Made by a program: the position numbers and the translations under genes. Below are positions 41,815 through 57,309 of a stretch of DNA of 64,000 nt, piece after piece; position 1 is the stretch's first letter, and every line of letters begins with the position of its first letter. The stretch comes from Nocardia sp. BMG51109 (GTDB lineage: Bacteria; Actinomycetota; Actinomycetes; Mycobacteriales; Mycobacteriaceae). The stretch is from positions 1,426,001-1,490,000 of the forward strand of contig NZ_JAFQ01000004.1 of assembly GCF_000526215.1 (NCBI RefSeq). Direction: 5' to 3'. The notes under the pieces were generated by a model. The model was given only the letters and a program-made list of their open reading frames with translations. It searched no databases and was not told the origin of the DNA.

Positions 41815-42741
<927 letters not shown>

Positions 42742-55927: not shown

Positions 55928-57031
55928 TCAGCCCCGGCGAGCCTCGACGGCAGCGGCGAGGCGGTCGAGCTGCGCGGCCGTGGTGTCCCAGTCGAGGCAG
56001 GCATCGGTGATGGACCGGCCGTACTCCAAATCGGCGGCGCGCCCCAGGGTGAGATCCTGCCGGCCCGCGCCCAGGAAGCTCTCCATCATCACCCCGACGA
56101 CGCTGCGATCACCGGCCGCCAGCCGCTCGGCGATATCGGTGACGACATCGACCTGCTTGGTGTGGTCCTTGTTGCTGTTGCCGTGGCTGGCGTCGACCAC
56201 CACCCGCTCCGGCAGCGACGCCTTCTCCAGCCGGATGCAGGCCTCGGCCACCGAGGCGGCGTCGTAGTTGGGCCCGGTGCTGCCGCCGCGCAGGATCACG
56301 TGGCAATCCTGATTGCCGACCGTGCGGATCAGCGCCGACCGCCCGTCCAGGCCGGTGCCGGGGAAGACGTGACTGGCCGCGGCCGCGCGCACGCCGTCGA
56401 CGGCGACCTGCACGTCACCGTCGGTGCTGTTCTTGATGCCGATCGGCATCGACAGCGCGCTCGCCAGCTGCCGGTGCACCTGGCTGGCCGCGGTGCGGGC
56501 GCCGATCGCCCCGTAGGAGACCAGATCGGCGATGTACTGCGGGGTGATCGGATCGAGGAACTCGCACGCGACCGGTAACCCGAGCGCGGTGATGTCCACC
56601 AGCAGCCGTCGGCCCAGTCCCAGACCGGTATTGATGTCGAAGGTGCCGTCCAGGTGCGGGTCGTTGATCAGGCCCTTCCAGCCGAGCGTGGTGCGCGGTT
56701 TCTCGAAGTACACCCGCATCACCACGTGCAGCCGATCGGACAGCTCGGCGGCCTTGGCGGCCAGTCGGCGACCGTAGTCGAGCGCGGCCTCGGGATCGTG
56801 CACCGAGCAGGGCCCGACGATCACCATCAGGCGGTCGTCGGCGCCGTTCAGCACGTCGACGGTGGCCTTGCGGCCGGCCCGCACGGTGGCGGCGTGCGTC
56901 TCGTCGATCGGGTGGTCGCGCCGCACCTCGGCGGGCGACAGCAGCGGGCTGATGCTCAGGGTGCGCTGATCGTCGAGATCGGCAGTGGCCGCGGGAGTCG
57001 AATGCGCGTCGGCATCGGCTGCGGTCGTCAT
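55928..57031 (-). CDS. aroG: DAHP synthase, class I (AroG/F/H type)
   Basis: 367 residues. First enzyme of the shikimate pathway, supplying aromatic amino acids and chorismate for the salicylate synthase at 61 kb. Type I alpha signatures: LMVIVGPCSVHDPEAALDYGRRLA, MRVYFEKPRTTLGWKGLINDPHLDGTFDINTGL, ACEFLDPITPQYIADLVSYGAIGARTAASQVHRQLASALSMPIGIKNSTDG, HVILRGG, DASHGNSNKDHTKQ and GVMMESFLGAGRQ. ATG 57031 has GGAG 6 nt upstream; ATG 57043 lacks a site. Preceded by an aromatic leader peptide. Confidence 0.95.
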   Translation of the reverse strand: MTTAADADAHSTPAATADLDDQRTLSISPLLSPAEVRRDHPIDETHAATVRAGRKATVDVLNGADDRLMVIVGPCSVHDPEAALDYGRRLAAKAAELSDRLHVVMRVYFEKPRTTLGWKGLINDPHLDGTFDINTGLGLGRRLLVDITALGLPVACEFLDPITPQYIADLVSYGAIGARTAASQVHRQLASALSMPIGIKNSTDGDVQVAVDGVRAAAASHVFPGTGLDGRSALIRTVGNQDCHVILRGGSTGPNYDAASVAEACIRLEKASLPERVVVDASHGNSNKDHTKQVDVVTDIAERLAAGDRSVVGVMMESFLGAGRQDLTLGRAADLEYGRSITDACLDWDTTAAQLDRLAAAVEARRG

Positions 57032-57043
57032 CGGGGGCTCCAT

Positions 57044-57193
57044 TTCTCAGGCCGGCCCACCGAGTAACTGTCCCGTCGAGCCGGTCTGGTCTTCCGGCTC
57101 GGGGTGGGAGAAGGTCAGCGCGGTTCACCGACCGGCCCACCCGGGGCCGGTTTGATAAACCAGAAATACGCGCGCTGCACGTCCTGGACTGTA
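57044..57193 (-). promoter_or_regulatory. Attenuator-like leader region of DAHP synthase gene
   Basis: TACAGT (57188-57193) ends 7 nt before the leader GTG (57180). Segment A CCGGCCC (57144-57150) pairs perfectly with B GGGCCGG (57132-57138). B can instead pair with the palindromic GGCCGGCC (57050-57057) just ahead of the aroG GGAG site. A separate 8-bp hairpin CGAGCCGG/CCGGCTCG (57077-57101) lies between. No U-run, so control may act on translation or via Rho. Confidence 0.6.
57115..57180 (-). CDS. Aromatic-amino-acid leader peptide (21 codons) upstream of aroG
   Basis: GTG-started ORF reading MQRAYFWFIKP then APGGPVGEPR and TGA. Codons 5-8 are Tyr-Phe-Trp-Phe, all products of the pathway started by the downstream enzyme: the layout of a ribosome-stalling attenuator. 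It has a -10 box at leaderless distance (TACAGT-7-GTG) and ends 84 nt before aroG. Leader peptides are known before DAHP synthase genes of other actinobacteria, for example Corynebacterium, as I recall. Confidence 0.8.
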   Translation of the reverse strand: MQRAYFWFIKPAPGGPVGEPR

Positions 57194-57250
57194 CCAGGCG
57201 GTGTCGTGCGCTCGAACAGTCGGACCGGCGCCGGTGAGAAGCACCACAAT

Positions 57251-57301
57251 CGACGGCGAGCCCGGCCGCGGATCGACAATCCGCGGCCGGGCTCGCCGTC
57301 G
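57251..57301 (-). terminator. Strong hairpin terminator after the AhpD-like gene
   Basis: Perfect 23-bp inverted repeat (57251-57273 with 57279-57301) around CGACA, 8 nt beyond the AhpD-like stop. It isolates that gene from the aroG leader promoter. Confidence 0.88.
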
Positions 57302-57309
57302 AGCGGGAC

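Follow-up and report, generated by a model that had tools for sequence, protein, structure and literature searches.

An aromatic leader peptide upstream of class I DAHP synthase in Nocardia and its relatives: a putative attenuator with a probably translational output

How might a Nocardia cell match the first enzyme of the shikimate pathway to its supply of aromatic amino acids? In the window, i.e. the whole stretch of 64,000 nucleotides analyzed here, a short open reading frame (ORF) with clustered aromatic codons raises this question. A first-pass annotation had described a 21-codon GTG ORF with Tyr-Phe-Trp-Phe as codons 5-8, a TACAGT box at leaderless distance and a position directly upstream of the first shikimate enzyme. 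We found all of these again, and the downstream gene matched the class I DAHP synthase profile. The annotation had also placed a 23-bp terminator upstream of the leader. The inverted repeat is real and has perfect 24-nt arms, but it is not followed by a U-run. The elements concerned are as follows.

57188-57193, minus: -10 promoter box TACAGT; the leader GTG follows after 7 nt, a leaderless spacing
57115-57180, minus: leader ORF, 21 codons from GTG to TGA, translation VQRAYFWFIKPAPGGPVGEPR and stop, leaderless-looking
57157-57168, minus: putative sensing codons TAT TTC TGG TTT (Tyr-Phe-Trp-Phe, codons 5-8)
57250-57302, minus: perfect inverted repeat, arms 57250-57273 and 57279-57302, after the preceding AhpD-like gene
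55928-57031, minus: class I DAHP synthase gene, start placed by alignment (57043 according to the ORF lister)

The synthase was identified by a TIGR00034 match of 486 bits (cut-off 173). Its true start is probably 57031 and not 57043, because aligned relatives start 12 nt later (alignment A1, see below); the ATG at 57043 falls within the ribosome-binding site. Elsewhere in the same genome lies a gene for a class II DAHP synthase (PF01474, 635 bits), which makes the leader-bearing gene one of at least two isozymes. A second class II-like gene at G000:C4:7622819-7623934 on the minus strand (L304) was matched as two adjoining pieces. Among named loci, those of Nocardia match best (83-86%). The closest relative of the window's synthase in our sample is L082 with 92% protein identity. 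Two class I matches were present in 12 genomes of the genus sample, and the lower-scoring copies (L154-L165) had no leader in 12 of 12 cases; these second copies are perhaps parts of specialised-metabolite clusters. A counter-case is L125: it scores higher than the other copy of its genome (L180) but has no leader, while L180 has one.

To count leaders we used a fixed definition, namely an ORF of 10-40 codons within 420 nt upstream of the synthase, with TANNNT 6-8 nt before its ATG or GTG and at least three aromatic residues in five codons. Such a leader was found in 161 of the 182 related synthase loci L081-L262, or 160 of 181 distinct ones as L219 and L236 are the same place, while the antisense strands gave 0/262 and dinucleotide shuffles 3/1310. 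The 21 loci without it comprise the 12 second copies named above, L125, five loci (L230-L234) and three (L216, L228 and L248) which by eye carry a related leader outside the fixed definition. L230-L234 are from a single family within the class sample; these five have a class I DAHP synthase but no aromatic leader under this definition. Among the loci L001-L080, 33 had a leader, made up of 22 of the 24 with an actinobacterial title (all except L019 and L036) and 11 others. Further loci of the same family had the leader in 40 of 40 cases once the aromatic window was widened to six codons. The first-pass annotation had suggested aligning the region to look for conserved YFWF codons. YFWF was present in 38 of the 40 loci L001-L010 and L081-L110, the remaining two reading YWF, and in 104 of 109 distinct close relatives (from 120 rows, with L200 set aside and duplicates dropped); because the sequences compared are kin, these conservation counts and those of the chain tests below are not independent. 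Other leader words were YWRF, YRWF, YRYF, WYAYF and RFYF. Among the 109 relatives, TANNNT stands 7 nt before the start codon in 91 cases, 8 nt before it in 13 and 6 nt before it in 5, which points to a leaderless start of the leader behind this box. Moreover, the Trp codon and the conserved stop lie a multiple of 3 nt apart in 108 of 109 sequences, a spacing that takes five different values; the remaining sequence has an earlier in-frame stop. Judged by these comparisons, the leader peptide upstream of DAHP synthase is real, strongly conserved and old.

The choice of codons is similarly restricted. The Tyr codon was TAT in 107 and the Phe codon after Trp was TTT in 106 of 109 leaders; the Phe codon before Trp was TTC in 93 of 105. 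In the synthase genes themselves (open frames of 45 of the same loci), Tyr was spelled TAT 5 times in 275 and Phe was spelled TTT in none of 240 cases. TATTTCTGGTTT occurs once in the genome and the other six matches of TAYTTYTGGTTY are spelled with other codons. We take the near-fixation of TAT and TTT as a sign of selection, either for slow decoding or on the RNA as such. Codon position 3 of the leader was not its most variable position, which counts against the explanation preferred below.

The RNA downstream of the box can be divided into segments that would form mutually exclusive helices, one of them overlapping the leader ORF.

57144-57150, minus: segment 1, CCGGCCC, within the leader ORF
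57132-57138, minus: segment 2, GGGCCGG, which gives hairpin A its 3' arm (1:2, paired in 96.5% of cells across 86 sequences)
57113-57133, minus: small hairpin F around the leader stop codon
57094-57108, minus: segment 3 (C), CCCACCCCGAGCCGG, able to pair with 57136-57150 (87% complementarity over 15 nt) or partly with segment 4
57078-57084, minus: segment 4, CCGGCTC, 3' arm of hairpin D (3:4) and alternative partner of segment 5
57052-57058, minus: segment 5, GGGCCGG, overlapping the GGCCGGCC palindrome
57029-57041, minus: segment 6, ribosome-binding site GGAG and start codon, predicted to be closed by segment 5 and its flank

In alignment A1, which holds 86 of the 109 sequences, hand-picked to thin near-duplicates, 95.6% of the cells were paired for 3:4, 73-76% for 5:6, 98.7% for 4:5 and 92.9% for (1-2):3, and the arms of hairpin D fitted the pattern in all 109 sequences. 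For 1:2, 3:4 and 5:6 taken jointly, none of 500 shuffles reached the observed percentage of pairing; as a point against these helices, a one-column slide gave more two-sided cells (26 vs 21). The palindrome next to the ribosome site is present at 57050-57057 as annotated. Its partner in the first-pass annotation was a leader segment. While the idea of alternative folds was borne out, we rejected this 1:5 pairing; 96.8% of its cells are paired, but it showed no two-sided change in the 86 sequences and one of its pairs was broken in 11 of them. Segment 4 appears to be the partner instead. Here two compensatory changes from C-G to U-A occurred in L082 and L100, i.e. two two-sided cells compared to 0.1 in shuffles, a value reached by 1 of 500, and another 4:5 pair was U-A in place of U-G in nine sequences. 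For (1-2):3, shuffles reached the observed covariation values within the YFWF group, and it is therefore only the comparison between groups that argues for this helix. It is found in changed letters as GGATG:CATCC in L211, GGTTG:CAACC in L215, TTGGTG:CACCAG in L020 and CTGGGTGG:CCACCCAG in L039. In the window a 2:4 helix of GCCGGTC (57130-57136) with GACCGGC (57080-57086) competes, and a search allowing one mismatch preferred 2:4 over (1-2):3 for the window and L010. Besides, in the window the stretch ATTTCT of the Phe codon region (57162-57167) matches AGAAAT (57042-57047) over 6 nt on the minus strand just before the ribosome-binding site and could pair with it, which recalls the LEU element discussed below.

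A greedy gapped-duplex test of the relay gave no signal and rarely exceeded shuffles, because GC-rich strands all find some partner. Therefore, we used ungapped helices 3:4, 4:5 and 5:6 that share strands 4 and 5 and compared them with dinucleotide shuffles. This chain test gave p<=0.05 in 52 of 55 loci of the YFWF group (every second of the 109), in 32 of 33 YWRF-kind leaders from the same family and in 10 of the 28 remaining loci, which belong to other families or are more distant members of the same family. The unconditional shuffles destroy 3:4 as well; with strand 4 held fixed, 75 of 109 loci of the YFWF group and 29 of 33 of the YWRF kind passed. The window itself reached p values of 0.016 unconditionally and 0.085 with strand 4 fixed. 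Thirty-three of 36 loci wanted for alignment A2 were aligned (L275 was unmatched, L269 a duplicate and L296 omitted). The YWRF kind of leader in the same family forms 3:4 as CCGGAGCCC:GGGCACCGG and 4:5 as AGGGCACC:GGTGCCCT, and 5:6 over the ribosome-binding site reads GTGCC:GGCAC in L207 and CTGGTG:CACCAG in one genus (L281). As far as complementarity goes, the relay is thus found again, in different letters, in same-family leaders that retain a U-run terminator.

These results bear on three other readings of the locus. DNA of 71% GC pairs easily, as the gapped duplexes illustrate, and a chance ORF beside GC-rich palindromes could look like a leader; the conservation of the leader compared to the controls, the chain tests, the rare codons and the maintained frame all contradict this, and we regard it as extremely improbable. 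A direct ligand riboswitch or a T-box sensing uncharged tRNA, with the ORF being incidental, would account for the strong RNA conservation within the ORF. However, from one family to another the letters of the RNA differ, whereas the aromatic codons, the frame and the promoter spacing stay the same. The leader region and 15 related loci gave no Rfam match at the gathering score, and a permissive search returned 14 matches, all below their gathering scores; 11 of these were to microRNA families and fell at or close to the inverted repeat upstream of the leader. Such an element is therefore very unlikely. The gap of 83 nt between the leader stop and the proposed synthase start would suit translational coupling or re-initiation into the synthase without any sensing of amino acids, but this leaves the near-fixed Tyr, Phe and Trp codons and the mutually exclusive helices unexplained, and we consider it highly improbable as well.

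The explanation that we favour, with moderate confidence, is a ribosome-mediated attenuator which senses charged tRNA for Tyr, Phe and Trp through a six-strand relay and has a mainly translational output. The transcript would start at or beside the leader GTG. In the OFF fold, 1:2, 3:4 and 5:6 would be paired and the ribosome site shut; in the ON fold, (1-2):3 and 4:5 would form and the site would be open. When aromatic amino acids are plentiful, the ribosome would reach the stop codon and lie over the beginning of segment 3 and some of segment 2, which would keep the (1-2):3 helix from forming fully. Segment 3 would then pair with segment 4 as hairpin D, and segment 5 would be free to shut the ribosome-binding site via 5:6. 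A shortage of Tyr, Phe or Trp would instead hold the ribosome at codons 5-7, upstream of segment 1; (1-2):3 could form, segment 4 would be released and capture segment 5, and the site would open. Whereas the ORF, the conservation of the leader and the complementarity of the five helices can be read from the aligned sequences, we infer the transcript start, leader translation, stalling, the order of switching and the mainly translational output. Together with its competing hairpins, which many related bacteria share, the leader very probably lets the cell make the synthase mainly when aromatic amino acids are scarce.

Folding calculations were compared with this scheme. The predicted unpaired fraction of the window's ribosome-binding site was 0.21 compared to 0.49 in shuffles, 13% of 30 shuffles being as low, and across the 109 sequences accessibility was 0.45 vs 0.56 in shuffles (Wilcoxon, 3e-9), which is consistent with a hairpin closing the site. 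Forced ON and OFF states were compared in the 100 of 109 sequences that had all forced pairs, with an assumed ribosome footprint that extends from the first base in the A-site codon over 15 nt on the upstream and 12 nt on the downstream side. The mean difference, ON minus OFF, was +8.5 kcal/mol without a ribosome and +15.4 kcal/mol with a ribosome at the stop codon, compared to +6.6, +6.8 and +12.8 kcal/mol for ribosomes stalled at Tyr, Trp and the last Phe. ON was preferred in 7% of sequences when stalled at Tyr, in 5% at Trp and in none in the other states. Thus, the energy shifts in the right direction on stalling, yet OFF is favoured on average in every state, and switching would therefore have to be kinetic. 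Similarly, equilibrium folding of the window with ribosome footprints left the ribosome site closed. With the ribosome stalled at Tyr or Trp, forcing the ON fold made the start codon freer (0.83-0.86 vs 0.51-0.58) and the ribosome site slightly so (0.54-0.58 vs 0.45-0.52). The first-pass annotation had assumed that a stalled ribosome covers the leader segment A, but with the assumed footprint at most its first base is covered at Tyr5, Phe6 and Trp7. A better fit is that the alternative helix is blocked by a ribosome which has reached the stop codon. What stood of the original proposal is the aromatic leader with alternative folds and leaderless promoter spacing, conserved upstream of DAHP synthase; details of the pairing and of the ribosome cover did not.

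The terminator bears on whether the output is translational. A loosely defined U-run hairpin was found in 16 of 129 YFWF-type leaders compared to 77 of 94 leaders of other types. In those of the latter that have it, inspection by eye places it between strands 3 and 4; in the YFWF group these strands close directly into hairpin D. A terminator scan of the window gave no terminator-like site at hairpin D, which is followed by GACGGGACAGTTACTC. Because hairpin D of the window has no U-run and the YFWF group is mostly without this terminator, the output in this genome is probably mainly translational. The same leader might instead act by transcription attenuation, with hairpin D terminating alone or with Rho and the ribosome-site hairpin being secondary. 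In L139, from another genus of the family, hairpin D is followed by seven T and resembles an intact terminator, as the sole case of 109; T is mildly enriched after D (3.48 vs 2.61 in the best 8 nt), and seven betaproteobacterial YFWF leaders show the classical antiterminator/terminator form by eye. The C. glutamicum aroR leader is assigned to the transcription level in the consulted part of one review and to translation in that of another paper. However, only 12% of the 109 have at least five T in 8 nt soon after D, against a background of 5%, and together with the window's own sequence after D this makes transcription attenuation unlikely, though a serious alternative to the translational attenuator. 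From the distribution of the terminator we also infer its loss and the direction of the change. A tentative scenario, to which we give somewhat less than even chances, is that class I DAHP synthase of actinobacteria ancestrally had a six-strand relay with two outputs, which transmitted the position of the leader ribosome to the ribosome-binding site, and a terminator nested between strands 3 and 4; this terminator would have been lost in the Nocardia/Rhodococcus lineage, leaving a purely translational Tyr/Phe/Trp switch that works through near-invariant rare codons. In other families we saw by eye no mutual exclusion between the nested U-run terminator and (1-2):3.

The annotation had rightly noted that related leaders are known in other actinobacteria, but it left unnamed the attenuator of the same enzyme, aroR of Corynebacterium glutamicum. 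This leader was reportedly studied by Neshat et al. in 2014. According to the accessible text of later papers, it lies before aroF, one of two DAHP synthases, and reads Phe-Tyr-Phe; Phe limitation raises expression while Tyr availability has no effect (PMC4046766, PMC11802643, PMC7356990). Like aroR, the window's leader is a small reading frame immediately before a class I DAHP synthase, and its aromatic codons are clustered. Unlike it, leaders of the window's type read Tyr-Phe-Trp-Phe, are mostly without a U-run terminator and appear to have their ribosome site closed by the strand relay. The aroR-like loci L204, L215 and L218 (one genus, presumably Corynebacterium, with RFYF leaders) share the promoter spacing and the (1-2):3 helix. 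The LEU element upstream of leuA in Actinobacteria likewise combines a run of sensing codons with a ribosome-binding site within the fold, as far as the available text describes it (Seliverstov et al. 2005, PMC1262725), but it differs in gene and codons and has a pseudoknot. The same text states that in Actinobacteria, with N. farcinica in the set, phenylalanine and tyrosine operons were not seen to be preceded by a conserved RNA structure. In the transcription attenuator of M. tuberculosis ilvB1, as outlined in the part of the article consulted, a ribosome at the leader stop masks the antiterminator and upstream stalling permits it (PMC13236596). The proposed relay resembles it in that a ribosome at the stop codon would block one helix which an upstream stall lets form, while the U-run terminator output and branched-chain sensing are features of ilvB1. 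The ermC attenuator has four strands and responds to a drug. It is like the proposed switch in that a stalled ribosome alters the pairing which hides a ribosome-binding site, and unlike it in that the latter has six strands and starvation codons. The excerpt seen of one paper names ermC as a translational attenuator (PMC2965389).

In the mainly openly accessible literature searched, C. glutamicum aroR was the sole described relative before DAHP synthase that we found, and the texts available held no description of the wider family, the terminator-less variant or the relay. From the accessible part of an S. lividans re-annotation we noted eight leader peptides, none of them for DAHP synthase. 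The principle is thus known from C. glutamicum aroR, and it is the terminator-less, probably translational variant that we did not find described. If the proposal is true, entry into the shikimate pathway would be under one old RNA switch in many actinobacteria, and leaders with the terminator present, vestigial or absent would form a natural series for the change from a transcriptional to a translational attenuator. There is also a practical use: according to the portion of one article at hand, aroF was freed from its control by exchanging the aroR leader during the construction of an aromatic producer strain of C. glutamicum (PMC7356990).

Two further observations concern other sequences. 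A c-di-AMP riboswitch (ydaO/yuaA leader) is predicted in the window at 41872-42058 on the plus strand with 49.9 bits (gathering score 38). Moreover, seven loci with betaproteobacterial titles (L027, L032, L034, L042, L050, L056 and L072) carry leaders like MNSARFYFGYFWFSRFTGGREI upstream of DAHP synthase. These contain the word YFWFS, and their ATG follows a TANNNT box at a distance of 6-8 nt; variants of the word are FFWF in L044 and HFWF in L021. By eye, the 5' arm of a U-run terminator has its complement in an ORF segment like CCGGCGGT of the betaproteobacterial leaders, as in a classical antiterminator.
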